A stretch of 32,834 nucleotides of DNA from Candidatus Woesearchaeota archaeon (GCA_018221105.1 JAAOYA010000006.1:1-32834), one strand, 5' to 3'. Positions 6,258-32,319 are shown, counted from the stretch's first letter. The notes: generated by a model from the letters alone, not told the origin. Numbers and translations: made by a program.

Positions 6258-6273
6258 ATCTTAGTACTATGAA

Positions 6274-9294: not shown

Positions 9295-9344
9295 CATTCG
9301 ACGATAAATTAGAAAGTTTTTTAAAGGTGTACAGTCCAAAAAAT

Positions 9345-9354
9345 CTTATTATAA
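9345..9354 (+). promoter_or_regulatory. TATA box upstream of the 1987-aa protein gene
   Basis: CTTATTATAA lies about 31 nt before the ATG at 9381, just after the end of the preceding gene. It suggests a new transcript start with a very short leader. Confidence 0.5.
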
Positions 9355-9371
9355 AGACTAAACACTGCACT

Positions 9372-9375
9372 GGTG
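9372..9375 (+). promoter_or_regulatory. Ribosome binding site GGTG deciding the start at 9381
   Basis: GGTG lies 5 nt before the ATG at 9381. The same frame is open from 9285, but the 32 residues added by the upstream TTG/ATG are polar and would bury the signal peptide. The ribosome binding site and signal peptide both point to 9381. Confidence 0.55.
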
Positions 9376-9380
9376 CAACA

Positions 9381-18535: not shown

Positions 18536-19011
18536 AAATAAAAGCTCAACTAACAGGACAATTCGTTGTTTACATGGCAGCAGCAGTTGTAGCAGTAATA
18601 GTAGTGATTTATGGGTTTAGCGCGATAAAAACCTTTCTAGAACAAAGAGGAGATGTTGAAACAACAAAACTAGTAGAAGACCTAAAAACAGAAATTATCA
18701 AAATGGCGACTCAGCCACGCGACGTAGAACAAAAAAATCTTCGAGCACCACTAAAATACACACAATTATGTTTTATAGACTCTCAAAACCCCGGAATCTT
18801 AGATGACCCACTAATCAATGAAAGCTATCAAAGCGGCAAAAACTTCTTTCTAATAAGTAACGAGCAAACAATAGGCTATGACATAGGAATTATTGTGACA
18901 AGCCCTCAAAGCCCACTATGCATTGACAATCCAACAGGCTTGACAAAACTACGATTAGAAGGACTGGGCAATTCAGTGCAAGTAAGCGAGTGGCCTACAA
19001 ACCTACAATGA
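18532..19011 (+). CDS. Pilin-like single-pass protein (KAQLTGQF type)
   Basis: A 159-aa protein whose N-terminus, MKIKAQ then LTGQFVVYMAAAVVAVIVVIYGF, fits a class III prepilin signal: basic residues, a cleavage-like A-Q step, then an alpha-helical hydrophobic stretch. I recognise this LTGQF family from DPANN genomes, where it lies in clusters with other pilin-like genes. The rest (about 40-159) is a small extracellular domain with two cysteines that could pair. It starts in an ATGA overlap with the anchored surface protein and ends in an ATGA overlap with the MGMT-type gene, so all three are likely translated together. A minor pilin or pseudopilin role is inferred. No function is known for the family. 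Confidence 0.8.
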   Translation: MKIKAQLTGQFVVYMAAAVVAVIVVIYGFSAIKTFLEQRGDVETTKLVEDLKTEIIKMATQPRDVEQKNLRAPLKYTQLCFIDSQNPGILDDPLINESYQSGKNFFLISNEQTIGYDIGIIVTSPQSPLCIDNPTGLTKLRLEGLGNSVQVSEWPTNLQ

Positions 19012-19301
19012 AATTCTTTGACAAAGTTTATTCTATAGTGCAAAAAATACCTCGTGGCAAAGTGATAACTTACGGCCAAATAGCAAAAAAACTACAAACA
19101 CGCAATGCAAGACTAATAGGCTTTGCACTAAACAAAAACCCTAACAACAAAAAAACACCCTGTCATCGCGTAGTATTCGCCGATGGCAGCCTAGCACCAG
19201 GATTTATTTTTGGCGGTCCAAAAAAACAAAAAAAACTATTACAAGTTGAAGGCGTAAAATTTGAAAACAACAAAGTACTAAGAGAACACTTTTGCAAATA
19301 A
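19008..19301 (+). CDS. Short MGMT/alkyltransferase-type DNA-binding domain protein with PCHR motif
   Basis: A 97-aa protein equal to the C-terminal DNA-binding domain of O6-alkylguanine-DNA alkyltransferases. It shows the entry block PRGKVITYGQIA (residues 15-26), the winged-helix segment with the arginine-finger-type ARLIG (R35), and TPCHRVV with the acceptor cysteine at position 52. Classical MGMT/Ogt proteins are about 150-180 aa and carry an extra N-terminal domain that is missing here. Alkyltransferase-like (ATL) proteins replace the Cys by Trp or Ala; here it is Cys, so alkyl transfer is chemically possible. ATG at 19008 overlaps the previous stop (ATGA). An in-frame GTG at 18990 adds only six residues and is less likely. 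The position inside a surface-protein operon is odd for a DNA repair gene. Confidence 0.85.
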   Translation: MKFFDKVYSIVQKIPRGKVITYGQIAKKLQTRNARLIGFALNKNPNNKKTPCHRVVFADGSLAPGFIFGGPKKQKKLLQVEGVKFENNKVLREHFCK

Positions 19302-19308
19302 TAAAAAC

Positions 19309-19318
19309 TTTTTTATAC
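19309..19318 (+). promoter_or_regulatory. TATA box of the pilin-like operon at 19340
   Basis: TTTTTTATAC is centred about 26 nt before the ATG at 19340, and no ribosome binding site is present, so the transcript is probably leaderless. Confidence 0.6.
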
Positions 19319-19339
19319 GCTCGAGCAAAATAAAATACT

Positions 19340-20389
19340 ATGAGTTCAAAAAAAAGAGGTGCCATAGAACTACAATTCAATTGGATATTCGTACTAATAG
19401 TAGGAGCTGTAATACTATTATTCTTTTTTGTAATTGTAACAAAACAACGCGATGTAAGCCAATTACAAATACAAGCAGATGTTAGTAGACGATTAGAAAG
19501 CCTACTATCAGGAGCTCAAACAGTCAGTGAAACAGCACAAATAATAGAAACACCACGCCTGACACTATCATTTGATTGTGAAGGTTACAGAGCAGGAGGC
19601 ACCAGTCCAATAAAAACACTAAGCGCATATTCACTAGATCAAATAAAAGGAACACAAATAATACTTTTTAGCAAAAACTTCAACATACCATTTCGGGCGA
19701 CAAACCTATTATTTGTTACAGACAGTCAAACACGTTACATTATAGTATCAGATGACAGTCTAGGAACTAACATATTAGAGTTAATACCAGAACAAGTCGA
19801 CAGACAACTAATCAGCTACGATGATTTGATGAGTTTAGAAGAGCAAAACAGCAATCGCGCAAGATTCATATTTGTCAACCCGCCAAACGATGATAACATT
19901 ACAATACCTACAGAGTTTCGTAGTTACAAAGACGAAAAAGTTAGTGCCGCAAAAATTGATAGTGTTAGCCCGTATGATTACGGCCGAGTAGCATACTATC
20001 AAAAACAAGGATTATTTTTGGATCAAACAGCATCATATGTCGAATACATCGATGATCCTATGATGCTAGCAGCACTTTTTAGCCAAGACGAAGAAGTATA
20101 CCAGTGCAATATCAAAAGAGCATTGACGCAAGCAATGTTTATCGCAGACTTGTACGCTAAAAGAGCAGAATTATTAGCAAACAGTGGACTGGCAGATATT
20201 TGCAACTCCTACACTACTAGTTCGATAACAACACTTCAAACACTAAAAAACAGCATCAAAGCAAAAACAGCCGACAACATAGGCGCGACAAGCGCAATAC
20301 AAGACTTAGAAGGCATTCACTCCAACGTACTAGAATTAAAAGATCGCAACCAACGATTATTAGATGAAAGTTGTCCAACACTATACTAA
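19340..20389 (+). CDS. Pilin-like membrane protein (GAIELQFNWIFVLI family)
   Basis: A 349-aa protein. The N-terminus MSSKKRG then AIELQFNWIFVLIVGAVILL is a class III prepilin-like signal and matches a strongly conserved DPANN family with the IELQFNWIFVLI signature. The outer domain (residues about 40-349) is mixed alpha/beta with few cysteines, ends in a helical stretch rich in Ala/Leu/Lys/Gln, and has Cys near the C-terminus. ATG at 19340 is about 26 nt after a TATA box. It is followed after 4 nt by the next pilin-like gene, so it heads a three-gene unit (19340-21369). It is probably a structural or assembly component of a type IV pilus-like surface machine; I know no experimental data on the family. 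Confidence 0.82.
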   Translation: MSSKKRGAIELQFNWIFVLIVGAVILLFFFVIVTKQRDVSQLQIQADVSRRLESLLSGAQTVSETAQIIETPRLTLSFDCEGYRAGGTSPIKTLSAYSLDQIKGTQIILFSKNFNIPFRATNLLFVTDSQTRYIIVSDDSLGTNILELIPEQVDRQLISYDDLMSLEEQNSNRARFIFVNPPNDDNITIPTEFRSYKDEKVSAAKIDSVSPYDYGRVAYYQKQGLFLDQTASYVEYIDDPMMLAALFSQDEEVYQCNIKRALTQAMFIADLYAKRAELLANSGLADICNSYTTSSITTLQTLKNSIKAKTADNIGATSAIQDLEGIHSNVLELKDRNQRLLDESCPTLY

Positions 20390-20393
20390 CAAA

Positions 20394-20882
20394 ATGAGAA
20401 AAAAGAGCCAGATCAAGATGACAGAAAACATTGCTGTGATGGTAATATTCTTTGTCCTATTAGTATTTGCAATAGTATTTTATGCAAACGTCAAACGCGG
20501 CACAAGCCAAGACGAACTAGAAGAATTAAAACAATTAAAAGCAGTCGACGCAGCACTAATCTTGTCAAACCTTCCAGAAATCAAGTGCTCAATAGCAGCA
20601 ACAGAACAAGGAGCATGCTTAGACCTTTACAAAATACTAGCATTAAAAGAAATCTACGAGCAAAACCCCAACAGTGTAATAAACCATTACCAAGACAAGT
20701 TTGGCTTTGCAACAATAACAATACGCCAATTATACCCAATAGAGCAAACAATAATAGTCTATGACAACAAAATTGACGATGACAAAATATCAAAGTTTTT
20801 TACGCCAATACCAGTAACATTGTACAATGTAACAAATGGCAATAACGCTTTTGGAGTGATAGAATTTGAAAAGTACGCGTAG
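20394..20882 (+). CDS. Pilin-like membrane protein (MTENIAVMVIFFVLL family)
   Basis: A 162-aa protein. MRKKSQIK followed by MTENIAVMVIFFVLLVFAIVFY resembles a prepilin signal and a DPANN family with an MTEN-I motif at the start of the helix. The outer domain has two cysteines about 11 residues apart (near residues 67 and 77) and ends as a beta-rich segment. ATG at 20394 was preferred to an in-frame ATG at 20364, because the latter would add ten residues before the basic start and overlap the upstream gene. The spacing to the upstream stop is 4 nt. It overlaps the next gene by 17 nt. Confidence 0.8.
   Translation: MRKKSQIKMTENIAVMVIFFVLLVFAIVFYANVKRGTSQDELEELKQLKAVDAALILSNLPEIKCSIAATEQGACLDLYKILALKEIYEQNPNSVINHYQDKFGFATITIRQLYPIEQTIIVYDNKIDDDKISKFFTPIPVTLYNVTNGNNAFGVIEFEKYA
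20853..20860 (+). promoter_or_regulatory. Ribosome binding site GGAGTGAT deciding a TTG start
   Basis: GGAGTGAT, close to the archaeal consensus GGAGGTGAT, lies 5 nt before TTG at 20866 and inside the preceding coding region. It argues for TTG rather than the ATG at 20887. Confidence 0.6.
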
Positions 20883-21369
20883 TCAAATGGAATTTATTGG
20901 AATAGTGATAATAGTACTATTAATAACACTCGTAATGCTGTTTGTGATAATATGGCTTGCTAACAAAGAACCAAGCGACATAAAACGTGAAGTGACAACA
21001 ACACAAGTCACAGCAAACATATTAAACGCAATGCTAAAAACAACCACTGATTGTCGCGACATGAGAGCAAGCGACCTAGCACTAAACTGCATCAAAACAA
21101 GTTTTAACGCCGACACAATAAAAAATTGTCAAAACGGGCAAAACAGTTGCGAATACTTTGAAAGCTTCACAGCCTCAATACTAAACAACACAATATACGA
21201 GTGGGGTAACGATTATAACTTTTACATAGAATACGATTCAACACAATACTTACAATCAAGCACAGGCAATTGCGCAAGTGATAACGTGCGAAAAGAAACA
21301 GAAACAAGCCCATACCCGTTATACCCCCTGCAAGGAGCAATAGAAGTAGTACTACAAGTATGCAATTAA
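20866..21369 (+). CDS. Pilin-like membrane protein (RSQMEFIGIVIIVLL family), TTG start
   Basis: A 167-aa protein starting at TTG: (M)KSTRSQ then MEFIGIVIIVLLITLVMLFVIIW. The basic residues plus S-Q step and hydrophobic helix form a class III prepilin-like signal only if the TTG is used. The ATG at 20887 would remove all basic residues. A strong ribosome binding site 5 nt upstream supports the TTG. The outer domain has six cysteines, three of them close together (near residues 78-90), plausible disulfides. It overlaps the previous gene by 17 nt and is the last gene of its unit; the next gene has its own promoter. Minor pilin-like role inferred. Confidence 0.78.
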   Translation: MKSTRSQMEFIGIVIIVLLITLVMLFVIIWLANKEPSDIKREVTTTQVTANILNAMLKTTTDCRDMRASDLALNCIKTSFNADTIKNCQNGQNSCEYFESFTASILNNTIYEWGNDYNFYIEYDSTQYLQSSTGNCASDNVRKETETSPYPLYPLQGAIEVVLQVCN

Positions 21370-21385
21370 AAACAAAAAAGCAATA

Positions 21386-21396
21386 GTTTTATATAC
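21386..21396 (+). promoter_or_regulatory. TATA box of the pilin gene at 21441
   Basis: GTTTTATATAC is centred about 50 nt before the ATG at 21441, leaving a leader of about 25 nt that carries a ribosome binding site. Confidence 0.6.
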
Positions 21397-21428
21397 GACA
21401 AACCACCAAAAAAACATATAAAGCACTA

Positions 21429-21435
21429 AGAGGTG
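21429..21435 (+). promoter_or_regulatory. Ribosome binding site AGAGGTG before 21441
   Basis: AGAGGTG sits 5 nt before the ATG. It is one of the best Shine-Dalgarno matches in the window, which suggests strong expression. Confidence 0.65.
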
Positions 21436-21440
21436 TTTAC

Positions 21441-21716
21441 ATGTACAAAAAAGCACAAGGAATCAGCATGAACATGATAATAATAGCTGCGATAGCACTA
21501 TTAGTACTAGTAATCACGTCAATAATATTTATTGGCAGAATGTCCGGAACAACAGCAAGCATAGAAAGCTGCACTAACAAAGCAGGAATGTGCGGAGTAG
21601 TATGCGGATCAGAAGACGCTGGAACAGCAAATTATCCATTTCAATACAACGAATTCAAATGTCCAGACGCAAGTGACGGCACACCACAACAATGCTGCCT
21701 ACAACTACAAATATAA
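21441..21716 (+). CDS. Small type IV pilin-like protein, candidate major pilin A
   Basis: A 91-aa protein with a textbook archaeal prepilin start: MYKKAQG, then ISMNMIIIAAIALLVLVI, a hydrophobic helix. The predicted cleavage is around the A-Q-G step. The mature outer part is only about 55 residues with six cysteines and a Cys-Cys pair near the C-terminus. It is very similar in its N-terminal 30 residues to the next gene. It has its own TATA box and a strong AGAGGTG ribosome binding site, consistent with a highly expressed structural subunit. This is the best candidate in the window, with its neighbour, for the bulk pilin; that is inference from size and signals. Confidence 0.82.
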   Translation: MYKKAQGISMNMIIIAAIALLVLVITSIIFIGRMSGTTASIESCTNKAGMCGVVCGSEDAGTANYPFQYNEFKCPDASDGTPQQCCLQLQI

Positions 21717-21722
21717 AATTTT
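21708..21722 (+). promoter_or_regulatory. Possible TATA box of the pilin gene at 21740
   Basis: An A/T-only stretch with ATATAAAATTTTA lies about 25 nt before the ATG at 21740 and overlaps the end of the previous gene. The region is so AT-rich that the exact element is uncertain. Confidence 0.35.
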
Positions 21723-21739
21723 ATTTTTCTATTTTTAAA

Positions 21740-21991
21740 ATGAAAAAGGCACAAGGACTATCAATGAACGTGATAATAGTGGCGGCACTAGCATTAATAG
21801 TGCTAGTGGTCGTGACAATTATTTTCACAAGCAATGTGCGCAACGCTAACAGAGGATTAAATGCTTGTGAGAGTAAAGGACAAGGCGCGACGTGCAGGCC
21901 AACTTGCGAGCCTAGTGAAGTTTCTGTAGGAGCTGCTGATTGCAAAGATAGAGATGAAGCGAATAATTTCTGTTGTTTGCCAGTGAAGTAA
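21740..21991 (+). CDS. Small type IV pilin-like protein, candidate major pilin B
   Basis: An 83-aa protein: MKKAQG, then LSMNVIIVAALALIVLVVV, almost the same as the preceding pilin in the signal and helix, with a different Cys-rich outer part (six cysteines, ending CCLPVK). Tandem paralogues of this kind usually arise by duplication. ATG at 21740 was chosen because the basic KK directly precedes the hydrophobic helix; the frame is open upstream to 21692 but the added residues do not fit a signal. It is preceded by 23 nt after the neighbouring stop. Likely structural pilin or minor pilin. Confidence 0.82.
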   Translation: MKKAQGLSMNVIIVAALALIVLVVVTIIFTSNVRNANRGLNACESKGQGATCRPTCEPSEVSVGAADCKDRDEANNFCCLPVK

Positions 21992-22000
21992 ACCCGCGAA

Positions 22001-22010
22001 AAACTTATAA
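22001..22010 (+). promoter_or_regulatory. TATA box of the 34-aa protein operon
   Basis: AAACTTATAA is centred about 29 nt before the ATG at 22035, with no ribosome binding site. It is a leaderless promoter that supports the very short gene that follows. Confidence 0.6.
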
Positions 22011-22034
22011 ACGCTATAACACACTATTTTCTTA

Positions 22035-22139
22035 ATGACTAAAAAAGGCAATAAAACATTGTTAACAGTAACATTATTCACTTTACTGTTAGCATTATTA
22101 TTGTGGATTGGAAGACTAATAGTCACCAAAGTACTATGA
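22035..22139 (+). CDS. 34-aa single-helix membrane peptide
   Basis: This very short frame starts MTKKGNK, then has a hydrophobic helix LLTVTLFTLLLALLLW and a basic tail. It is supported by a TATA box at leaderless distance, by a basic-then-hydrophobic layout like its neighbours, and by an ATGA overlap (22136-22139) with the next gene. Its translation would couple the 320-aa pilin-like protein to the promoter. It could be a true small subunit or mainly a leader peptide for coupling. No family is recognised. Confidence 0.65.
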   Translation: MTKKGNKTLLTVTLFTLLLALLLWIGRLIVTKVL

Positions 22140-23098
22140 ACAAAAAAGCACAACAAGAAACACTTAGAAATTTATTATTGTTAATAATAGTTTTAGCATT
22201 ACTATCAGTATTTCTTTATACAACACTACTAAAAGCTGATAATATTGTAGACGAAGAACTATGCCTTAGCAGCGCAGTAATGCAACACGCGCAAAAAACA
22301 GTCAGTGGCAATCTTGCAAATCCATTCAGCGATATTAATTGCCCAGCAAAACTCTACGAGCTAGAAAATAAAGATTTAGACCTAGCAACAGCCGAAAAAT
22401 TGATGAGTCAACTTAACAAAAGAGGAATAGATTTTGATAACACAACACCAGAAGAATTCGCGCTTAACAATTTTTTAGCACAAAGAATGGAAAGTTGTTG
22501 GCGAGGACTAGGAAGTGGCAAATTAGACCTTTTCGATAGTAATATGATTGACAGAAACAGAGCATGCGTACTATGCTCTGTTGTAGAATTTGACGAGCTT
22601 AACATAGACAAAAATACAACTATTGACTTGGGTTACTGGCTAAAAAACGTTGAATACAAAAGTACAGGCATAAGTTATTTTGAACACTTGTTAGATCCTG
22701 ATATCAAAGAAAGACCAACAGTTTACGCTATGACAAGCAACATGCAATACTTTTACAACATTGAAAAACCAGTAGCAGTAGTGTTTGCTCGCTACAACGG
22801 TGGAAAACTCTCAAACTTACAAGGAACAGTAGGTACCGCGGGAGGAGCAGTTGGAGGCGCAATAGTTGGAGCAACAATTTGTTCAGTAGTGCCTGTAGGA
22901 GGAACCATTGTCTGCGGGGTTGGTGGAGGATTGCTAGGTGCGTTAGCTGGTAGTGGGGCACCAGCTATTAGTAATTTGCTATCAGGCGGACTAGCAGATG
23001 TTGACGAAGTACTAGTAATACCCTACACAGTAGAAAACCTACAATTAATCTGCCAAGAAGTAGTTAACGGTTTTAAAACACAAGAGGAAAAACCATGA
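22136..23098 (+). CDS. Pilin-like membrane protein with a glycine-zipper segment
   Basis: A 320-aa protein. The N-terminus MNKKAQQETLRNLLLLIIVLALL is prepilin-like. The outer domain contains a conserved Cys pattern around residues 121-147 (CWRGLGSGKL, then CVLC), which I recognise from DPANN surface proteins. Residues about 230-275 are a Gly/Ala/Val stretch with G-x(3)-G steps (GGAVGGAIVGA and GVGGGLLGALAG), a glycine zipper able to pack helices or insert into membranes. A short cysteine-containing end follows. It starts in an ATGA overlap with the 34-aa gene and ends in an ATGA overlap with the 47-aa gene. The function is unknown. Confidence 0.82.
   Translation: MNKKAQQETLRNLLLLIIVLALLSVFLYTTLLKADNIVDEELCLSSAVMQHAQKTVSGNLANPFSDINCPAKLYELENKDLDLATAEKLMSQLNKRGIDFDNTTPEEFALNNFLAQRMESCWRGLGSGKLDLFDSNMIDRNRACVLCSVVEFDELNIDKNTTIDLGYWLKNVEYKSTGISYFEHLLDPDIKERPTVYAMTSNMQYFYNIEKPVAVVFARYNGGKLSNLQGTVGTAGGAVGGAIVGATICSVVPVGGTIVCGVGGGLLGALAGSGAPAISNLLSGGLADVDEVLVIPYTVENLQLICQEVVNGFKTQEEKP
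23084..23087 (+). promoter_or_regulatory. Ribosome binding site GAGG before the 47-aa gene
   Basis: GAGG lies 7 nt before the ATG at 23095, inside the end of the previous gene. It is a strong hint that the short frame is translated. Confidence 0.55.
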
Positions 23099-23238
23099 AA
23101 TTATTAAAAAAAGGACAGTTAGGACTAGAAGACCTAAAAAAAATATTATTTATGTTATTATTACTAGTTCTTGGAGTTATACTAATCTGGAAATTTTACG
23201 GAGCAATAAAAACAGCAGCACAAAATGTTTTCCCATAA
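23095..23238 (+). CDS. 47-aa pilin-like membrane peptide
   Basis: The frame encodes MKLLKKGQLGLEDLKKIL followed by a hydrophobic helix (FMLLLLVLGVILIW) and a short tail. KKGQ-LGLED resembles a class III prepilin cleavage region. It has a GAGG ribosome binding site, an ATGA overlap with the upstream gene and a 14-nt overlap with the next gene, all typical of a real operon member. It would be one of the smallest pilin-like subunits, with almost no outer domain. Confidence 0.7.
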   Translation: MKLLKKGQLGLEDLKKILFMLLLLVLGVILIWKFYGAIKTAAQNVFP

Positions 23239-23605
23239 CAAAAAAGCAAACGTGGACATGGCCTTTAGTTGGGTCAACGGATTAATACTATTAATAATAA
23301 TAGTTGCAATAGTAGGAGTTGGATACTTTGTTTACACATTAAAAGCGACAACCGATTTATTAGGAGAAGAAAAGACACCTCCAAACGAAACACAAGAATT
23401 CATCCCTTTTACCGAGCGAGAAATACAAGCTTGTGTTGATCAAATACAAGAGACAGAATTTTATTGCTGTTATGAAGTAAAAGATAATAAATACTTTTAT
23501 TCAAAAAATGAGCGTTGCGCACAAAAAAAGTTTTTATGGTGGGAGAGAAATCTTGGAGAGCGCCAAATAATAGAAAACTGTTGTCAAAGTATAGGATTTG
23601 GATAA
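23225..23605 (+). CDS. Single-pass pilin-like membrane protein with Cys-rich outer domain
   Basis: A 126-aa protein. The start MFSHNKKA, then NVDMAFSWVNGLILLIIIVAIVG, is basic-then-hydrophobic, like the neighbouring prepilin-like genes. The outer part has six cysteines, including two Cys-Cys pairs, and several Trp/Tyr residues. The overlap with the 47-aa gene is 14 nt, and no ribosome binding site is visible. It ends one nucleotide before the next start. I do not recognise a named family. Confidence 0.75.
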   Translation: MFSHNKKANVDMAFSWVNGLILLIIIVAIVGVGYFVYTLKATTDLLGEEKTPPNETQEFIPFTEREIQACVDQIQETEFYCCYEVKDNKYFYSKNERCAQKKFLWWERNLGERQIIENCCQSIGFG

Positions 23606-23606
23606 A

Positions 23607-24134
23607 ATGGCAGGCGACGATGATATGGGCAATAAACTTGTAAACATCATACTAGTAGTAGGAATACTTTTTTTTGTGTTTATTGTTGTCGCAAAACTTT
23701 ACGCCGCGGTAACACCACACCCTGATAAAACAAGCCTTGATAATCGTGATGCTGTAGTGCAAGTTATTGAAAGTATGAAAGAAGACCTACAAAGTTGTGA
23801 CTCTGGGCAAGCAAGTACTTGCACAAAAGAAATAAGTCAGCCAATGCAATGGTCAAAAGACTACAAGTTATGGTTTATTGACAAAAATAATGCTATAATT
23901 GTAACTCTTTCTGAATGTAAAAAACAAAGCTGTCTATGTCTTACAGATGATACAAGATATTTTTGTGAACCATTAGATGATATAATAATGCCTGCTAATC
24001 CTACGTCGCTACATTCATCAGGCAATATTGATGCCTTAAACTTGAAAATGGGCAAGACAAGCGATGGTTATAGTTTAGAAATTGAACGTGTTGAAACACC
24101 AGAATTATTCGATCCAACAGTTATAGCGCCATAA
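23607..24134 (+). CDS. Single-pass membrane protein of the pilin-like cluster
   Basis: A 175-aa protein with a short acidic N-terminus (MAGDDDMGNK) and a hydrophobic helix (LVNIILVVGILFFVFIVVA), unlike the basic prepilin starts nearby. The outer domain has about seven cysteines, four of them within residues 109-125. ATG at 23607 was chosen one nucleotide after the previous stop, with AGGA 10 nt upstream. TTG at 23598 and ATG at 23625 in the same frame are possible; the latter would give a more basic start. It is the last gene before a new promoter. Confidence 0.72.
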   Translation: MAGDDDMGNKLVNIILVVGILFFVFIVVAKLYAAVTPHPDKTSLDNRDAVVQVIESMKEDLQSCDSGQASTCTKEISQPMQWSKDYKLWFIDKNNAIIVTLSECKKQSCLCLTDDTRYFCEPLDDIIMPANPTSLHSSGNIDALNLKMGKTSDGYSLEIERVETPELFDPTVIAP

Positions 24135-24176: not shown

Positions 24177-25166
24177 ATGTTTTTAACAGGTAGAAAGGGA
24201 GGTGTTAGCTTAAGCCTCGAACATTTAGTACAATTGGTTTTTCTAGTGGCTGTTGTCATGCTAATGTTTTTTCCTGCTTTTATTTCACAAGTTGGCACTG
24301 ATGATTACCGCTCAAAGTTAAGTGTTGCTAATGATGCACAAATACTTTTCGAGCTCGGACAAAGTATTAGTGGTAATTTGAATTTTTATTTTAACAGTCT
24401 CAACTATATTGTTGACTTGAAACGTGATGGTGTTTTTGTTCGCTCACAAGCAGAGAGCTCTCGCAATCCACCGCTCCAAAGACCTTTTCTGTCAAATTCT
24501 TATATTATGATCGGTGAAGCTAATGATACTAATCCTGTAATCGTAAAAAACAATAATGCTCTTAACCTGTTAAAAACAAGTAGTTCGGGAGCCGCCAGTG
24601 CAGCTAGTGACTTATGCGAGGCGTACAAGGCAAAACTCTTGTCTCAAAGTCTCATTATTGGCATTGATGCTGCGCATGGCGGGCCTGACACTACAACAAT
24701 AACGCATAATTTGTTCAATGAAGAAAAGTACGCTCGCCAACTTACAACTTCGACAAAAGTAGCTTTAGAATTAAAAAATATTAATAGCACTGCTAGCAGA
24801 CCACTTGACAGGCCAGTAAACAAAATAATAACTGGTAGTGAGCGACTACAAGCCTTGAGCAGTAGCACTGTACTTTTTAGTTTTCACACTTCACACTCTA
24901 GCATTTCACAAAACCAACTAATAATAACATACAATGAATTTGATGACGCAAAAAACCTTGCTTGTGTACTACAATCAAAACTAATTAGCGAGTTTAGTAG
25001 TGTTCAAACAAGACCAAAAATACTTTCAAGCTATCACGAGCCAATGCTAGACGCTCAAATTCCAGCTTTAATGCTCGAAGTTGGCGCTCCAGCAAACCAC
25101 CCGCAAAACACTGATCGATTAGCAAACATCATAACAAAAACAATTCAAGAGTTTTACCAACAATGA
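24177..25166 (+). CDS. Pilin-anchored N-acetylmuramoyl-L-alanine amidase-like protein (Amidase_3 fold)
   Basis: A 329-aa protein. Residues 1-35 are a prepilin-like start (MFLTGRKGG, then VSLSLEHLVQLVFLVAVV). Residues about 157-327 fit Amidase_3, the zinc amidase that cuts the bond between MurNAc and L-Ala in peptidoglycan: IIGIDAAHGG (H167), NEEKYARQL (E182/E183), SERLQALSSSTVLFSFH (H237), and PALMLEVGAPAN (E301). These correspond to the His/Glu/His zinc ligands and the catalytic Glu of AmiC/CwlM-type enzymes, so the site looks intact. The G in the usual D-x-GHGG is Ala, a mild change. It heads a leaderless operon and its stop overlaps the next start (ATGA). In an archaeon the substrate is unlikely to be its own wall. 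The fold call rests on motif order; a structure prediction would settle it. Confidence 0.75.
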   Translation: MFLTGRKGGVSLSLEHLVQLVFLVAVVMLMFFPAFISQVGTDDYRSKLSVANDAQILFELGQSISGNLNFYFNSLNYIVDLKRDGVFVRSQAESSRNPPLQRPFLSNSYIMIGEANDTNPVIVKNNNALNLLKTSSSGAASAASDLCEAYKAKLLSQSLIIGIDAAHGGPDTTTITHNLFNEEKYARQLTTSTKVALELKNINSTASRPLDRPVNKIITGSERLQALSSSTVLFSFHTSHSSISQNQLIITYNEFDDAKNLACVLQSKLISEFSSVQTRPKILSSYHEPMLDAQIPALMLEVGAPANHPQNTDRLANIITKTIQEFYQQ

Positions 25167-25636
25167 AACAATTACTAAAAAACAAAAAAGGCTTTGGAGA
25201 AGGACTCTTATGGGTTGCAAGACTGTTATTTTTGGCAGCAGTACTAGCAGGACTAACAGCATTTTACGCTTTTTCCAACACTGCAGGATTAAATGCTGAA
25301 GATGTTAGAGCGCAAGCTTTGGTGCTGCGATTAACACACGCCCCAAATGGCATATCATTTGTTGATGGCGCAGGACGATTACACATAGAAATAATAGATT
25401 ATAACAAATTATCAGACAATATTACACTTGCAACATTGTATAATTCTACAAGCATTACAGTAAACGTTAGCATTGACGGAGAAGACTTTTTTACAAATAA
25501 AAGATTTTACACTTTAGCAAAACCACTAGCAAGTTTTGGAAAGTATGAAACAGTAAAGCGTGAACGTCACACACAACTACTAAAAAATAATCAGTTAACA
25601 AGCACTAAAATGGTGATAGAAATTGTTTACCAATAA
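25163..25636 (+). CDS. Pilin-like membrane protein
   Basis: A 157-aa protein with a prepilin-like start (MKQLLKNKKG, then FGEGLLWVARLLFLAAVLAGL), followed by a cysteine-free outer domain of mainly beta character (about residues 45-157). It sits between the amidase-like and the next membrane gene in an operon with ATGA and 14-nt overlaps, so it is probably a subunit of the same surface assembly. The function is unknown. Confidence 0.78.
   Translation: MKQLLKNKKGFGEGLLWVARLLFLAAVLAGLTAFYAFSNTAGLNAEDVRAQALVLRLTHAPNGISFVDGAGRLHIEIIDYNKLSDNITLATLYNSTSITVNVSIDGEDFFTNKRFYTLAKPLASFGKYETVKRERHTQLLKNNQLTSTKMVIEIVYQ
25612..25617 (+). promoter_or_regulatory. Ribosome binding site GGTGAT deciding a TTG start
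   Basis: GGTGAT lies 5 nt before TTG at 25623, within the previous coding region. This is the same arrangement as at 20853-20866. Confidence 0.6.
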
Positions 25637-26123
25637 AAAAGCAATACTTGGAGGTATAGTAATACCAATAGCTATGATAGTAGTGCTTGCAATATTCATA
25701 ATCTTTTTTTCAGCAATAACAATACAAGAAAAAATGCAAGAAAACGAGCTAGCAAACCAAAACAAAGATTTTGAAGGAGGCTTTTTTGTACAATCACTAC
25801 TAAAAACAGAAGTTGATAATTTAGAAAGCCAAAAAACAGAGTTATGGCAGTTAATGGTGCAAGAAGAATACTTATATTTGACTAATGACTTGCAAGTTAA
25901 TCAACTACGAGATCTCTTGTACGAGCACATCTTTAGAATTACTAGGGAAACTTTCGGGGAGTTCAGTTGCCCTGATATAACTATTAATGGTCGTTACATT
26001 CAAGTTTCTAGAGATTGTGTCACAACAGGACAAGACAAATTATTTGAGAGCGAAACAAAAATTCCTTATTATTATTCAACTAATCCAACAACAATACTGA
26101 TGGAATTAAAAATTACAAAATGA
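25623..26123 (+). CDS. Pilin-like membrane protein, TTG start
   Basis: A 166-aa protein read from TTG: (M)FTNKKA, then ILGGIVIPIAMIVVLAIFIIFF, a basic-then-hydrophobic prepilin-like signal. No ATG occurs before the middle of the helix, and GGTGAT 5 nt upstream supports the TTG. The outer part begins with a charged helical stretch (about residues 35-85) and ends beta-rich, with two cysteines (near 118 and 133). It overlaps the upstream gene by 14 nt and the M23 gene by ATGA. Confidence 0.78.
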   Translation: MFTNKKAILGGIVIPIAMIVVLAIFIIFFSAITIQEKMQENELANQNKDFEGGFFVQSLLKTEVDNLESQKTELWQLMVQEEYLYLTNDLQVNQLRDLLYEHIFRITRETFGEFSCPDITINGRYIQVSRDCVTTGQDKLFESETKIPYYYSTNPTTILMELKITK

Positions 26124-27154
26124 AACAAAACAAAAGAGCAGGAGCATTTTTTGAAGGTTTCCTAGTTTTTACTATTATCATAATACTTGTGACAACGCTC
26201 TTTATTATTGTAACACGACAATCAAAAACAATTGATGAAGTTGGCCAAAGACCAATCTTGATAATGTCTGCCGTCAGCCTAGCAGATAATAAACTATTAT
26301 TTTTGGATATGGCAGCAGTCAAAGCATTAGAGCAAGCAGAAATTGATTTAGCATTGCAAGGAGGCTTTAGCACCCCAGACTGTAAAAGTATTGCAGGTTA
26401 CAGTTTATGGTTTGAAAAAACAGATTGTTACCCAAACATTGAAAGCGAATTATTAGAACAATTTAGCATAAACCTTGATGATTATTTATTGATTGCAGGA
26501 CTGCCAATTAATAATTATGATATGCTAATAGCAAATAATACAATCATTGCAAAAGCACGCCAGGATTTAGTAATTCCCATTGATCAAACACTAAAAGAAG
26601 CACAACAATTAAGTTTCAGCACTGCAAGTTGTGGTACTCCGATACCTGCACAAAACGGTTTAGTGTGGCCACTAGATGACACTAACCAATTGCATACTGT
26701 GCTGACAAGCTGTTACGGTCAAAGAAATTGCAAGCCTTACTGTGTTGACGAATCACACGACGCAATAGACATTGACGCAGTTACGGGAGATTGTATTTTT
26801 GCAGTGGCAGTTGGCGAAGTAATAGATGTTGGAGGCCCGTACAATAAAATTGTAATAGCGCACGAAAATGGTATGAAAACATTTTACTTACACAACGCCA
26901 AAAACATAGTAGCAAAAAATGATAAAGTTGTCAAAGGGCAAATAATAGGCTTTGTTGGAGGTTACGGCGAGGGAAGACAAAACCGTTACGGTGACCACTT
27001 ACACTTTGCAATAAAAATAGGAGACAATTATATTGACCCATTAACATATTATGGAGCTCAAGAATTGAAAATAAGCACTGAAAGTAATTGTTATTACGAC
27101 AAAAACATGATGGCAAATCTTGGATTTAATGATGAGGATGTTCATAATGGATAA
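26120..27154 (+). CDS. Pilin-anchored M23 (LytM-type) zinc peptidase
   Basis: A 344-aa protein. MKQNKRAG, then AFFEGFLVFTIIIILVTTLF, is a prepilin-like anchor. A spacer domain (about 40-170) follows, then an M23 peptidase domain (about 175-312), whose family cuts peptide cross-links in bacterial peptidoglycan. Visible residues are H213-x3-D217 (zinc ligands, in ESHDAIDID), H258 in TFYLH (catalytic-type His), and H293-L-H295 in GDHLHFAI. Supporting blocks are AVAVGEVIDVGG, KIVIAHENGMKTFYLH and DKVVKGQIIGFVGG. All expected residues are present, so activity is plausible. Cysteines around 198-225 could form disulfides absent from most bacterial M23 domains. It overlaps both neighbours (ATGA upstream, 8 nt downstream). 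Confidence 0.88.
   Translation: MKQNKRAGAFFEGFLVFTIIIILVTTLFIIVTRQSKTIDEVGQRPILIMSAVSLADNKLLFLDMAAVKALEQAEIDLALQGGFSTPDCKSIAGYSLWFEKTDCYPNIESELLEQFSINLDDYLLIAGLPINNYDMLIANNTIIAKARQDLVIPIDQTLKEAQQLSFSTASCGTPIPAQNGLVWPLDDTNQLHTVLTSCYGQRNCKPYCVDESHDAIDIDAVTGDCIFAVAVGEVIDVGGPYNKIVIAHENGMKTFYLHNAKNIVAKNDKVVKGQIIGFVGGYGEGRQNRYGDHLHFAIKIGDNYIDPLTYYGAQELKISTESNCYYDKNMMANLGFNDEDVHNG
27134..27137 (+). promoter_or_regulatory. Ribosome binding site GAGG deciding the start at 27147
   Basis: GAGG lies 9 nt before ATG 27147. Other in-frame ATGs at 27129, 27132 and 27138 overlap or precede it, so 27147 is preferred. Confidence 0.5.
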
Positions 27155-29429
27155 ACATTTTCACAAAGCATTGTACGTTTTTACAATTATATTGTTACTT
27201 GCAGGTTTAACAATAACTTTTTGGCAAGGCCCAACAATCACAGGTTATGCTATAAGCAATCAAAATAATTTGTTAATAACACCTTATTGTGAAGGCTATG
27301 ACCTTACAAAACTAACAGAATCATCTTTTAGTGCTTGTCAGCCCTACACCGCGCTTTTTAGCACTTACAAACCGCGAGAGATGGACTTATTACTTTTTAT
27401 GGCATTAGCAATGCAAGAGTCAAGCTGCAATCCAAACATCAATGATGGAGGAATACTGCAAGTTGATAAGGTATGCCTGCAAGAAAAAAAATGTGACACT
27501 ATAGAAAAACAATTTGAAGAAGGAGCAAAAGTGTTAGAGATAGAAATAAAAAATACATTAAAAACAAATGTTGACAACCAACACGCTTACGCATTCACAT
27601 TCTTTGGCTATAATCGTGGTGCAACAACAATGAAAAATGCTATAGATTATTACAAAGATGGTGAACAACCATTTTTTGCAATGAAAAGAGCCTGTGATGA
27701 AGTATTCAAAGGCGAAACAGACCGTTACGGTCGAGACAAGTGTAATGCTGCAGGCTACGGGCCATATTATCCTGCAAGCGTTTTTGAAAGATTCAGTAGT
27801 GCTTGTGGCGAGCTTGGAGGAACAGTAGTTGGAGATGTTTACAGCGTAAAATACACAGGTGCTTTAGGAGTGTTAGGTCAATACAATATAAAACCATCTT
27901 TTAGCACAACCCAAACCGTCAACTTAAGTGTTTATGATTATTTACAATCAAAAGCACAAGAACTAATCAATGATTGCTCGAGCGTTGATGACAAAGATGA
28001 ATGCGTAGAACAAAAAATCAGCCAATTCACAAGTGTGAATTTAGAGTGGAGTCTTGACTGCGATGAACAACCAGAATTTGTTGAATTAGTGCAAAATTAT
28101 CAAGAATGCTTAGAAACAACAGATAATGATTGTTATTGTCCACTACCAAAGAAAAATTTCAAGGTTGAAGATTTTACAGAATTAATTTTTGAAAATGGCA
28201 AGACAAGTTTTAAAATGACGACTAAAACAAAACCAGTAACTCAATTGTATGTTGATGATGGGGGACTTTGCATTATCGAAGATAATAATCGACAAATCAT
28301 AAAAGAACAAAGATTGCTATATCAAGAAGACACGCGAGGACAAAAAATTTTTATTGAAAATCAACCAAAATATTTAACACAACCCTACTTATATTATTAT
28401 AATGATACTGGAGGCTCGCATGCTTGTTTTACAGTCTCGGATAATTTTCCAATCACGCAAGCAGAACCTGCACCTTTATGCAAGTTGCAACCTAAAGCTT
28501 ACAAATTATGCGTAAAAACAAACAATGATGTAATAGGGTTTGATAGTAACACGCAGAAAATTAAAGAACAAAACTTAACGTATAAGTTTGCGCTTCGATT
28601 AGAACAAACAGCCCTGCCGCCAATAAACAATTTAGAAGTTTTAGACAAAGCTGGCAGTGAAGACAAAATATTGTTGGTTTTTGACGAGGCAAAAAGCAAA
28701 AACATAGACTATTATAACATATATATTGCAGAACAATCTTTTATTGATTATCCAATAACCAACCATCAAGTAAAAGCACCATTTGGCGTGCAAAACATTA
28801 CAATAAAAGCGACAAGCCCAAACAATTACCAATTAACACAACCACTAACAACTTGCACTTTTGTAAAGATTGGCGAGCCATGCCGTTTTACAGAACAACA
28901 AATACTAATAGAGCCTAACAAATTATACAAAATCAACGACCAACTAGTAATAGCACTAAAAGATTTTGAGACAACAAAAAATTATTACATTGCAATAACA
29001 GTAATCGACAAAACAGGACTAGAGATTGACAACACTAAAACAGATCAATTACTAGAATACAACAAAAACTACGCTCAAATAACATCAATTGATGACTTAG
29101 GCCCAGGACCTGTAAGCTTTAAACTAGCAGGACTAACAACTAATGAGATAACGCTAGATTGGGATAAGCCAGCAAACCTTGATGGCAGCACAATTGACGA
29201 CTTAGAAAAATACTTAGTTTTTTCGCAAGCAATTAATACTGATCAAAACTGCAATATTGATGAATTATTACAAGAAACACCACAAGAAAAAATAGCATTA
29301 GCGATAAGCACTAGACTAACAAGAACTGCAGGACAAAAACAATGTATTACTATAATGGCAAAAGACAAACAAGACAATCCTTCTAACGAGCAAGTCAAAA
29401 ACTTCTTACAAGTATACAGTCTCGAATAA
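27147..29429 (+). CDS. Membrane-anchored lytic transglycosylase-like (SLT/lysozyme fold) protein with fibronectin-like domains
   Basis: A 760-aa protein. Residues about 7-28 are one hydrophobic helix (signal anchor). Residues about 75-215 resemble an SLT/goose-lysozyme-type domain, whose members cleave the MurNAc-GlcNAc glycan bond. LLLFMALAMQESSCNP contains the expected catalytic Glu (E91), followed by GGILQV, a QFEEGAKVL helix, and FFGYNRGA at 152-159, equal to the family's A-Y-N-x-G step. Cysteines within the domain suggest disulfides. Further on are a Cys-containing middle region and at least two fibronectin type III-like domains (about 500-590 and 640-750). It is the last gene of the hydrolase operon and overlaps the M23 gene by 8 nt. 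The fold call rests on motifs; substrate and activity are inferred. Confidence 0.75.
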   Translation: MDKHFHKALYVFTIILLLAGLTITFWQGPTITGYAISNQNNLLITPYCEGYDLTKLTESSFSACQPYTALFSTYKPREMDLLLFMALAMQESSCNPNINDGGILQVDKVCLQEKKCDTIEKQFEEGAKVLEIEIKNTLKTNVDNQHAYAFTFFGYNRGATTMKNAIDYYKDGEQPFFAMKRACDEVFKGETDRYGRDKCNAAGYGPYYPASVFERFSSACGELGGTVVGDVYSVKYTGALGVLGQYNIKPSFSTTQTVNLSVYDYLQSKAQELINDCSSVDDKDECVEQKISQFTSVNLEWSLDCDEQPEFVELVQNYQECLETTDNDCYCPLPKKNFKVEDFTELIFENGKTSFKMTTKTKPVTQLYVDDGGLCIIEDNNRQIIKEQRLLYQEDTRGQKIFIENQPKYLTQPYLYYYNDTGGSHACFTVSDNFPITQAEPAPLCKLQPKAYKLCVKTNNDVIGFDSNTQKIKEQNLTYKFALRLEQTALPPINNLEVLDKAGSEDKILLVFDEAKSKNIDYYNIYIAEQSFIDYPITNHQVKAPFGVQNITIKATSPNNYQLTQPLTTCTFVKIGEPCRFTEQQILIEPNKLYKINDQLVIALKDFETTKNYYIAITVIDKTGLEIDNTKTDQLLEYNKNYAQITSIDDLGPGPVSFKLAGLTTNEITLDWDKPANLDGSTIDDLEKYLVFSQAINTDQNCNIDELLQETPQEKIALAISTRLTRTAGQKQCITIMAKDKQDNPSNEQVKNFLQVYSLE

Positions 29430-29433
29430 AAAA

Positions 29434-29445
29434 CTTTTTATATAC
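29434..29445 (+). promoter_or_regulatory. TATA box of the RPA operon
   Basis: CTTTTTATATAC begins four bases after the stop of the SLT-like gene and lies about 35 nt before the TTG at 29474, giving a short leader. Confidence 0.6.
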
Positions 29446-29473: not shown

Positions 29474-30460
29474 TTGATACGAATGCCAACAAGTCAAATA
29501 ATCGACAAAATAATAAGTGAAACAGACCTGACAGAAACAGAAATTAAAGGTCGAATACAACAAAAACTTGACGCACTATCAGGACTAATAAGTGAAGAAG
29601 GAGCAGCGCACATAGTAGCAAACGAGCTAAGCATAAAACTATTCGATGCTGGAGGGAGACTACAAATAAAAAACATATTATCAGGAATGAGAAGTGTAGA
29701 AACAATTGGTAAAGTCACTAACATATTTGAAATTCGAGAATTTGAAAATGCACGTGGAAAAGGAAAAGTCGCAAACATAATAATAGGCGATGAAACAGGA
29801 CGCATCAGAATAGCAATTTGGGGAAGCAAAGCAGACAAAATAAAAGAATTAAAAGAAAACGATATAGTAAAAATAAAAAATGGTTACGTGCGAGAAAACC
29901 AAGGACGCAAAGAAGTACACTTAAACGATAACTCAGAATTGACAATCAATCCAAGCGATGAAACAATAGGAGAAGTATTACAAACTCCAGGTTTTGGCTA
30001 CACAAGAAAAAACATCAACGAACTAAAAAATGACGATAATGTAGAAATAATGGGTTTTATAGTGCAAGCGTTTGAGCCACGATTCTATGAAGTATGCCCG
30101 CAATGCAGCAAGAAACTAAAAAACAAAGAAGAAACACTAGTCTGTGACGAACATGGAATAGTAACACCAGATTATTCATACGTTCTAAACTTTCAAGTCG
30201 ATGACGGAACAGACATCATAAGAGCAGTAGCGTTTCGTCAACAAACACAAAAACTATTAGATAAAACGCACGAACAAGTGTTAATACTGCGCGAAAAACT
30301 AGAGAACTTTGAGTCAATAAAAAAAGAATTATTAGGAGAACAAGTAAAACTAGTGGGACGTGCACAACAAAACAATATGTTTGACCGTTTAGAATTTGTA
30401 ACACAATTAGTCTTTGCAAAACCATCACCAGAAGACGAAATCAAACGTTTAGAACAATGA
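29474..30460 (+). CDS. rpa: Replication protein A (single-stranded DNA-binding protein)
   Basis: A 328-aa archaeal RPA that coats single-stranded DNA during replication, repair and recombination. An N-terminal helical segment (about 1-60) is followed by an OB-fold at about 64-160 (TIGKVTNIFEIREF, then VANIIIGDETGRIRIAIWG). A second OB-fold-like part (about 185-300) holds an inserted zinc ribbon, C208-x2-C211 with C224 and H227. Length and order match euryarchaeal-type RPA. The start is TTG at 29474, supported by AGGTGA 4 nt upstream; ATG 29483 would lose three residues. It has its own TATA box and is ATGA-coupled to the following membrane protein. A partner for RadA, which lies 0.8 kb downstream. 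Confidence 0.9.
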   Translation: MIRMPTSQIIDKIISETDLTETEIKGRIQQKLDALSGLISEEGAAHIVANELSIKLFDAGGRLQIKNILSGMRSVETIGKVTNIFEIREFENARGKGKVANIIIGDETGRIRIAIWGSKADKIKELKENDIVKIKNGYVRENQGRKEVHLNDNSELTINPSDETIGEVLQTPGFGYTRKNINELKNDDNVEIMGFIVQAFEPRFYEVCPQCSKKLKNKEETLVCDEHGIVTPDYSYVLNFQVDDGTDIIRAVAFRQQTQKLLDKTHEQVLILREKLENFESIKKELLGEQVKLVGRAQQNNMFDRLEFVTQLVFAKPSPEDEIKRLEQ

Positions 30461-30828
30461 ACGGCTTAACACACTTATTAATAGGTTATGTTTTTGGACT
30501 ACTATTCTTGAAAATTTACAACGCACAAAACCCGGCAGTATTTATCATATTTGTAGGACTAGCAGCACTAATGCCAGACATTGACAATTCAAAAAGCACA
30601 GTAGGGAATAAAATAAAAATTATAGGATGGTTATTCAAACACCGCGGATTCTTTCACACACTATGGGCTGCGCTAATGTTTAGCGTATTGGCTTATGCTT
30701 TTAGTAAAGAAATTGCAATAGCAGTACTTGTAGGATACACTAGTCACCTACTAAGCGATTCACTAACACCTATGGGTGTTAGGCCACTATGGCCAATAAG
30801 CAAAAAAAAGCTCAAACTCGTCAAATAA
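30457..30828 (+). CDS. YdjM-like membrane-bound metal-dependent hydrolase family protein
   Basis: A 123-aa multi-pass membrane protein of the PF04307 (YdjM/LexA-regulated) type. Family residues visible are H6 in the first helix, LMPDID (D41), KHRGFFHT (H62, H67) and GYTSHLLSDSLTPMGV (H97, D101), which form the presumed metal site. Bacterial members are regulated in the SOS response. The biochemical role in archaea is unknown. It is shorter than many members (about 150-200 aa), with four hydrophobic stretches. It overlaps RPA by ATGA, so it is likely translated with it. Confidence 0.82.
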   Translation: MNGLTHLLIGYVFGLLFLKIYNAQNPAVFIIFVGLAALMPDIDNSKSTVGNKIKIIGWLFKHRGFFHTLWAALMFSVLAYAFSKEIAIAVLVGYTSHLLSDSLTPMGVRPLWPISKKKLKLVK

Positions 30829-30833
30829 CTCAA

Positions 30834-30865
30834 TCTCACTGGTCACTGGACAAGTCCGTGTGAGA
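30834..30865 (+). other. Inverted repeat after the YdjM-like gene
   Basis: TCTCAC (834-839 of the 30-kb block) pairs with GTGAGA (860-865), and inside it CAC-T-GGA can pair with TCC-GTG. It lies just after the stop of the YdjM-like gene and before a TATA-like element. It may help end the RPA transcript or bind a regulator; no T-run follows directly. Confidence 0.35.
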
Positions 30866-30874
30866 GTTATAAAC
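30866..30874 (+). promoter_or_regulatory. Probable TATA box before the radA unit
   Basis: GTTATAAAC is the best TATA match in the 163-bp gap. It would give a transcript start near 30895 and a leader of about 97 nt, longer than for other genes here. Confidence 0.45.
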
Positions 30875-30934
30875 AACTTCTACCATTATACTAGTAAAGG
30901 CCCCAAAAGCCAAACAAAAAATTGAACTCTTCGG

Positions 30935-30954
30935 ACCAACAACTAATTGTTGGT
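30935..30954 (+). promoter_or_regulatory. Perfect hairpin in the 5' leader before 30992
   Basis: ACCAACAA, a CTAA loop and TTGTTGGT form an 8-bp stem with no mismatches. It lies in the predicted leader, about 25 nt before the ribosome binding site. This could be an RNA structure or a dyad for a DNA-binding regulator. Confidence 0.5.
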
Positions 30955-30979
30955 ATGAAACAAGAACCGAAAAGGAACC

Positions 30980-30984
30980 GAGGT
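30980..30984 (+). promoter_or_regulatory. Ribosome binding site GAGGT before 30992
   Basis: GAGGT lies 7 nt before the ATG at 30992. Confidence 0.6.
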
Positions 30985-30991
30985 AAAAAAC

Positions 30992-31255
30992 ATGAACAAC
31001 CAACCAGAAAAAAAATTCAGAATTGGCAGCATCAGTGCCACAATATGGAAAAATAGTGCCCTAAACAAACAAGGAGAAGAAACAAGCTTCAACACAATAT
31101 CAATAGAGCGGGGCTACAAAGACAAAAACGATGAGTGGCAATCAACTAATTCTTTGCGAGTAGGAGACCTGCCAAAAGCAGAACTAGTACTAAAAAAAGC
31201 CTACGAGCACATAATGCTAGATAATAGTGCAGACCAAGAGTCTGCACAAGCATAA
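30992..31255 (+). CDS. Small conserved hypothetical protein next to radA
   Basis: An 87-aa soluble protein, Lys/Glu-rich, with a compact beta-like core: [15 protein letters not shown], then an Ile-Glu-Arg strand ([15 protein letters not shown]), then [24 protein letters not shown] as a C-terminal helix. I recognise this pattern (K-F-R-x-G-x-I-x-A-T-I-W, and the S-L-R-V-x-D-L-P-K-A ending) from small proteins in archaea and some bacteria, without a known function. Its position between RPA and RadA suggests a role with single-stranded DNA or recombination, but this is only context. It has its own leader with a hairpin and a GAGGT site, and 26 nt separate it from radA. Confidence 0.8.
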
Positions 31256-31271
31256 AATTAAAAAATACAAA

Positions 31272-31277
31272 GGTGAT
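31272..31277 (+). promoter_or_regulatory. Ribosome binding site GGTGAT before radA
   Basis: GGTGAT lies 4 nt before ATG 31282. It overlaps the in-frame GTG at 31273, which is therefore not the start. No separate TATA box is clear in the 26-nt gap, so radA is probably co-transcribed with the small gene upstream. Confidence 0.6.
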
Positions 31278-31281
31278 ACAA

Positions 31282-32319
31282 ATGGATATTCAAGCAATAA
31301 CACAACAAGAAGATATATTACAAGAAGAAATAATTGAAGAAAAAATAACAAAGAAAAACAAAAAAATGACCAAAGAAGAAGCCAAAGAACCAACACTATA
31401 TGACTTGCCAGGAGTAGGAGCTGCAACAGCAGAAAAACTAGAAAGCGCAGGCTACAACAATTTAATGTCAGTAGCAGTAGCCTCAGTAGGACAATTAGTG
31501 GACGTGGCAGGAGTAACAGAGGCAAACGCTAGAAAAATCATCAATGCAGCACGCTCATCAATGAACATGGGATTTGAGAGCGGTCAAGCACTACTAGCAA
31601 AGCGAGAAAAAATCATTAAAATACAAACAGGCTCGCAAAACCTCAATCAATTAGTAGGTGGCGGTTTTGAGACAAGCGCCATAACAGAAGTTTTTGGAGA
31701 GTTCGGAAGTGGAAAAACACAAATCGCACACGTTCTAGCAGTCAGAATACAAGAACAAGACCCAAGCGCTATAGCAGTATACGTTGATACAGAAAACACT
31801 TTCAGACCAGAAAGAATAAACCAACTATCACAAGGTGTTGGATTAGATCCTGACAAAGTATTAAAAAACATCAAAGTGGCAAGAGCATACAATTCAGACC
31901 ATCAAATGCTACTAGCAGAAAAAATCAATGATTTAATAATAAAAGACAAACTAAACGTAAAACTAGTAGTCATAGATTCTCTAACAGCACATTTTAGGGC
32001 AGAATTCATTGGTCGTGGAACACTAGCTGAAAGACAACAAAAACTCAACAGGCACATGCACGTACTATTAAGACTTGCTGACACACACAACTTAACAGTG
32101 CTAGTGACAAACCAAGTAATGTCGAAACCCGACATGTTCTTTGGCGATCCAACAACAGCAATTGGAGGCCATATAGTAGCACACGCTTCAACTTTTAGAA
32201 TATACTTGCGAAAAGGAAAAAAAGGTTCCAGGGTAGCAAAACTTATTGACAGCCCAAACCTTCCAGAAGGAGAATGTGCTTTTATGGTAGAACAAAGTGG
32301 TCTAACAGACGTCAACTAA
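31282..32319 (+). CDS. radA: DNA repair and recombination protein RadA
   Basis: A 345-aa archaeal RecA/Rad51 family recombinase that forms ATP-dependent filaments on single-stranded DNA and drives strand exchange. Residues about 38-95 are a helix-hairpin-helix domain ([20 protein letters not shown]). The ATPase core has Walker A GEFGSGKT at 139-146 and Walker B LVVIDS. It also contains the FRAEFIGRG segment, ending with [19 protein letters not shown] and the usual [17 protein letters not shown] block. The N-terminal 35 residues are an unusual charged Glu/Lys-rich extension. ATG 31282 is fixed by GGTGAT. The stop sits in the loop of a terminator hairpin. Its neighbour RPA fits the recombination context. 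Confidence 0.96.

Follow-up and report, generated by a model that had tools for sequence, protein, structure and literature searches.

A conserved archaeal pilin-like gene cassette with exchangeable peptidoglycan-hydrolase domains, putatively directed at bacterial cell walls

Introduction

The hosts of most archaea of the Woesearchaeota kind are not known. Cultivated DPANN archaea live on archaea (PMC11291902). Murein-like lytic transglycosylase proteins (fam00969) have been reported in Pacearchaeota and Woesearchaeota, with bacterial hosts suggested for them (Castelle et al. 2021, PMC8204110), and were noted again in 2024 (PMC10936187). In 2025, archaeal peptidoglycan hydrolases were shown to kill bacteria, with Nanoarchaeota rich in such enzymes (Strock et al., PMC12352652). 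Here, we describe a five-gene unit in a 32,834-nucleotide stretch of DNA (the window) from a Candidatus Woesearchaeota archaeon (GCA_018221105.1, JAAOYA010000006.1:1-32834). From 5' to 3', the unit encodes an Amidase_3-type protein, two small pilin-like proteins, an M23 peptidase, and a divergent SLT/g-type-lysozyme-like protein; the first four are called subunits 1 to 4 below (AmiN, pA, pB, and M23N) and the last the fifth protein.

The locus resembles the fam00969 proteins in combining an extracellular murein-type hydrolase domain with large proteins in related archaea, proposed to target the walls of bacterial hosts or to serve in attachment to them. A single domain type is described there, however, and the pilin-like scaffold, the cassette, and the exchange of enzyme families are not in it (PMC8204110). 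As in the work of Strock et al., archaea without peptidoglycan make peptidoglycan hydrolases, M23 included, but that survey required a recognized wall-binding domain and its tested enzymes came from culture supernatants (PMC12352652). The enzymes of the window, which sit on pilin-like anchors without a recognized wall-binding domain, fall outside its definition of modular archaeal peptidoglycan hydrolases. Functional modules carried on small pilin modules are known from the type IV pilins PilB and PilC of Streptococcus sanguinis (PMC8179133), and four small subunits with one large partner make up the PilHIJK/GspHIJK minor-pilin tip complex with PilC/PilY1 (PMC10191384), a likeness of parts list only. 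No sequence similarity to either was detected, however, when the scaffold was searched against the PDB. The survey of modular pilins lists mostly adhesion modules, with a peptidase in one architecture, and mentions neither archaea nor hydrolases (PMC8179133).

Polymorphic toxin systems (PMC3482391) also join a constant N-terminal delivery part to exchangeable C-terminal enzyme domains. In our case, however, the carrier is pilin-like, and no immunity gene is expected because the producer appears to lack peptidoglycan. Murein-hydrolase domains had already been reported in such archaea. No description of the pilin cassette, or of enzyme swapping on it, was found in the literature searched, which did not extend to most subscription journals or to any bioRxiv preprints.

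Hydrolase folds and pilin-like anchors

Subunit 1 matches Pfam Amidase_3 (PF01520) at E = 5e-6 with 27.1 bits, barely over the curated cut-off of 27. Its zinc ligands and catalytic glutamate are present when aligned with relatives (H167, E183, H237, and E301), and an Amidase_3 profile built from the window and sister cassettes matches the structures of Cwp6, LytH, CwlV, and AmiC with E values from 1e-13 downwards. Subunit 4 matches Pfam Peptidase_M23 (PF01551) at E = 5e-18 with 65.5 bits (cut-off 28.7) and has the complete HxxxD, H, HxH motif (H213, D217, H258, H293, and H295); its M23 domain alone matches solved M23 peptidases in the PDB at 7e-10. For the fifth protein, the match to Pfam SLT (PF01464; E = 0.044, 13.8 bits) lies under the curated cut-off of 21.3, so the protein is not filed as a member. 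It does contain E100 in an ES motif, followed by GGILQ and YNRG, and the pattern ES..GGI.QVD..YNRG is common to two relatives, one of which is L097. A profile of this domain from the window and its closest relative matches goose-type lysozymes (E = 9e-4), and in a profile-profile comparison (hhalign), strong SLT domains from sister cassettes align with the window domain (84% probability, E = 8e-6); those sister domains themselves match MltC and Slt70 (E = 1e-19 to 1e-15). The Pfam assignment being weak by itself, the domain is best regarded as SLT/g-type-lysozyme-like and not as a proven SLT member.

These matches and the catalytic residues bear out an initial sequence-only reading of the locus, which had proposed Amidase_3, M23, and SLT-like folds with their key residues present. 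Chance resemblance was rejected, as domains, motifs, and synteny all agree. Outside the cassette, the genome of the window encodes an additional SLT domain and an additional M23 domain (G000:C2:188398-188715 and G000:C4:147975-148166 (L136)).

In window proteins 1 to 4, the N-terminus consists of a short basic leader with KG, KA, or RA at its end and then a single long hydrophobic helix (a class-III-like, KKG/KRA start). The fifth protein starts with a signal or membrane helix of ordinary type and lacks a prepilin-like motif. For comparison, we collected the surrounding DNA of 36 places and then of 60 more, and examined 93 cassettes; an M23-containing query retrieved the first 32 relatives, and the 60 were chosen by scaffold score alone. 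Across these cassettes, a prepilin-like start is present in 71/83 AmiN, 63/85 pA, 79/95 pB, and 84/94 M23N proteins (74-90% each), compared with 112 of 326 other N-terminal-helix proteins from the same stretches, a set that itself includes further pilin-like genes. Subunits 1 to 4 carry the class III signal of type IV pilins (a basic leader that ends in G or A, then a single hydrophobic helix), a putative cleavage site. The sequence-only reading had given each hydrolase an N-terminal membrane helix and called two of them prepilin-like, with pilin-like pA and pB interleaved. The helices and the interleaved subunits stand. As a correction, every protein of the unit except the SLT-like one is prepilin-like; among free-standing proteins in the SLT slot, 1 of 18 has such a start. 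The genome also encodes a prepilin peptidase (Peptidase_A24) and two FlaI/TadA-like ATPases of the T2SSE family, one of them followed by what looks on inspection like a platform-like membrane protein.

A conserved scaffold with variable enzymes

Many relatives found by searching with the M23 protein match only its first 150 residues. Around this region, a recurrent gene order emerges, consisting of further pilin-like genes, AmiN, pA, pB, M23N, an SLT-slot protein that is frequently fused to M23N, RPA, YdjM, an 87-amino acid protein, and RadA. The M23N scaffold profile is found in 251 of the 287 sampled genomes of the order (87%), a breadth that led us to reject a recently acquired single weapon island; other orders of the same class give weaker matches. 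The SLTC region of the fifth protein is present in 64 of the 93 cassettes. The constant element is the scaffold of four pilin-like subunits, not the three-hydrolase set. Assembly contamination was likewise rejected, the same locus standing beside archaeal RPA and RadA in dozens of genomes. One cassette, L056, has two tandem M23N scaffold proteins (7019-11132), apparently from a duplication of subunit 4.

The enzymes carried on this scaffold are variable. The Amidase_3 fold was detected in 43/93 cassettes with its ligands kept in 6 of the 43, and in most relatives it may be a pseudo-enzyme with a structural or binding role. What stays conserved in relatives lacking the ligands is a late glutamate (ExGN), together with an AC motif. 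M23 was detected in 24 cassettes, with active-site residues complete in 20 and the domain degenerate in L033 and L073, and SLT in 25, all with the catalytic glutamate, a figure biased by detection. The degenerate Amidase_3 of most relatives agrees, for that one enzyme, with an outcome that the sequence-only reading had named in advance as refuting it, the loss of catalytic residues in close relatives. The window is the only one of the 93 cassettes with all three hydrolases intact.

Most cassettes whose subunit 4 gave no M23 or SLT match with family profiles were scanned with Pfam. The subunit-4 slot of these relatives contains NlpC/P60, M15/VanY, M15_4, M74 penicillin-insensitive murein endopeptidase, and Amidase_2 domains, as well as a strong Amidase_3 domain and 3D, VgrG3-like muramidase, and divergent SLT-type domains. 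L109 has a Muramidase domain in the amidase slot, and proteins encoded after subunit 4 in relatives carry M23, SLT, GH25, Amidase_2, or M15_4 domains. Counting firm cases only, at least one peptidoglycan hydrolase is present in 59/93 cassettes, and 38 of the 60 picked by scaffold score alone have one.

Mapped onto an RPA tree of 68 loci, the hydrolase label needs no fewer than 26 changes, a count inflated by detection failures, taken across many weak forks, and made with no shuffled control. Within one genus (L036, L117, and L129; RPA 66-71% identical), M23 gives way to NlpC and muramidase domains and scaffold identity in subunit 4 drops to about 28%, while L036 and L117 remain 48% alike across the whole protein. 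A second genus (RPA 75-84%) has Amidase_2 beside M15/VanY on scaffolds that are 33-43% alike. Over the exchange of M23 for NlpC and muramidase and that of M15 for Amidase_2, RPA identity is 66-79%. The cassette diverges much faster than the neighboring RPA, and the hydrolases appear to be exchanged quickly at a fixed locus.

A possible contact apparatus for bacterial walls

The best-supported target would be bacterial peptidoglycan, because the non-homologous domains that swap on one scaffold share little but this substrate. The source genome (assembly of 1.15 Mb, 92% complete) yielded no Mur ligase and hence no murein or pseudomurein pathway, so synthesis of either polymer by the archaeon itself was rejected. 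The replacement of M23 by non-homologous hydrolases in relatives and the missing Mur ligase both back the target favored by the sequence-only reading. Its proposal of a cell-contact device keeps the folds, catalytic residues, and surface anchors on its side, but the three-hydrolase set on which it was built is peculiar to this genome among the 93 cassettes.

We assign a probability of roughly 60% to the reading that the locus encodes a type IV pilin-like surface display system whose fast-changing hydrolases cut bacterial walls at contact. Gene order, domains, catalytic residues, scaffold conservation, non-homologous hydrolase exchange, and the absence of Mur ligase were read directly from sequence; from them we infer pilin assembly, tip position, action at contact, and a bacterial target. 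The five genes would encode that portion of a type IV pilin-like surface structure which bears its enzymes, with four prepilin-like subunits anchored in the membrane and their C-termini outside. The prepilin peptidase would process these subunits, and FlaI/TadA-type machinery, whose genes lie elsewhere in the genome, would assemble them. Together they would make up a conserved complex comparable to the four minor pilins that sit at the tip of type IV filaments in bacteria. Peptidoglycan hydrolases would be grafted onto this complex as C-terminal modules or as the associated fifth protein, the set in the window being an amidase, an M23 endopeptidase, and an SLT/lysozyme-like glycosidase. By acting on the peptidoglycan of a bacterial partner or prey at contact, they could loosen its wall locally, and quick enzyme exchange is what one would predict if the enzymes have to suit the walls of different bacteria.

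Several observations weigh against this reading. A Pfam scan recognized no cell-wall-binding domain in the window proteins, most relatives with a detectable Amidase_3 fold lack its zinc ligands, and 34 of the 93 cassettes have no firmly recognized hydrolase. In a few cassettes, the subunit-4 scaffold carries PGA_cap, metallophosphoesterase, or GDSL domains, which are possibly aimed at other surface polymers. The pilin assignment itself faces the absence of the classical Glu+5 from most sequences in the alignments inspected, a residue also missing from some known minor pilins. A sequence search of the M23N scaffold against the PDB gave no match, and single-sequence AlphaFold2 models were poor (mean predicted local distance difference test scores of 37 for subunit 4 and 48 for pA), with only the N-terminal helix confident.

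The same hydrolase evidence would apply if surface-displayed digestive enzymes cut bacterial wall debris for uptake and left live cells alone. Small-genome archaea depend on salvage, and peptidoglycan fragments would be a useful source. Pilin-like anchoring and rapid exchange are a better fit to contact and conflict, however, and a free secreted enzyme would do as well for scavenging, which we consider unlikely. Slightly less probable in our view is that the folds chiefly bind bacterial walls as an adhesin, with catalysis secondary or lost. Retention of the Amidase_3 fold without ligands and the degenerate M23 domains of L033 and L073 would fit this, and attachment was also suggested by Castelle et al. 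2021 (PMC8204110). Active-site residues of M23 and SLT are nevertheless kept in nearly all detected domains, and a pure adhesin would not need them. The poorest candidate is that the archaeon remodels its own surface polymers or processes pilins or an S-layer of its own. A near-core locus with such wide retention resembles a housekeeping surface function, non-peptidoglycan enzymes occur in a few cassettes, and some M23-type enzymes cleave proteins, but the 92% complete genome yielded no Mur ligase and hence no murein or pseudomurein pathway, and M74, M15, NlpC/P60, Amidase_2, SLT, and muramidase domains share no evident substrate other than peptidoglycan.

If the locus does cut bacterial walls at contact, modular type IV pilins would extend to archaeal peptidoglycan hydrolases, and the cassettes would offer a large, naturally occurring collection of wall-cutting enzymes attached to a single scaffold. 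That a near-core surface locus centers on enzymes for bacterial walls suggests bacteria as the partners. More tentatively, and with rather more doubt than belief, the cassettes could constitute an order-wide, perhaps class-wide, contact apparatus, in which a dedicated type IV filament bears a tip complex with interchangeable hydrolases that open or kill bacteria, making bacteria the usual partners of a large DPANN-like lineage.

Organization of the locus and neighboring genes

The five open reading frames lie on the plus strand at 24177-29429, as the sequence-only reading had placed them, and overlap at each junction (Table 1). They plausibly form an operon, because TATA-like boxes precede both the first ATG and the downstream RPA gene. 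The true start of the fifth protein is probably the ATG at 27147.

Table 1. Features of the window, and cassettes of relatives with non-peptidoglycan enzymes
Feature	Coordinates	Strand	Details
Pilin-like gene array	18532..24134	+	Upstream; starts at 18532, 19340, 20364, 20866, 21441, 21692, 22103, 23225, 23598; order and homology kept in relatives
TATA-like box CTTATATAAA	24145..24154	+	About 27 nucleotides 5' of ATG 24177; read from sequence
Subunit 1 (AmiN)	24177..25166	+	Prepilin-like N-terminus and Amidase_3 domain, residues 161-307
Subunit 2 (pA)	25163..25636	+	Small pilin-like protein; KKG and helix; homologues in 85/93 cassettes
Subunit 3 (pB)	25623..26123	+	Small pilin-like protein; KKA and helix; homologues in 80/93 cassettes
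Subunit 4 (M23N)	26120..27154	+	Pilin-like scaffold domain, residues 1-165; M23 peptidase domain, 212-307
Fifth protein	27120..29429	+	Signal/membrane helix; SLT/g-type-lysozyme-like domain, ~60-225; conserved C-terminal SLTC region
TATA-like box CTTTTTATATA	29434..29444	+	Precedes RPA, marks operon end; read from sequence
RPA, YdjM, 87-amino acid protein, RadA	29474..32319	+	Syntenic anchor genes, outside the device
Cassettes with PGA_cap, metallophosphoesterase, or GDSL	L103 3756-5999; L109 3419-5575; L113 4702-6177; L085 1561-3534

The array upstream of the unit comprises nine or so pilin-like genes, those starting at 21441 and 21692 forming a similar small pair, and is probably part of the same surface system, representing the rest of the filament. 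The flanking genes are archaeal, with RNase P p30 upstream and RPA, YdjM, and RadA downstream. A small O6-methylguanine-DNA methyltransferase-type gene (18990-19301) lies within the array and seems unrelated to it. Directly upstream of the array, the region 1372-18535 encodes a run of very large secreted proteins of up to 2019 amino acids, with MopE, dockerin-like, Big_13, TSP3, and CarboxypepD_reg-like repeats.

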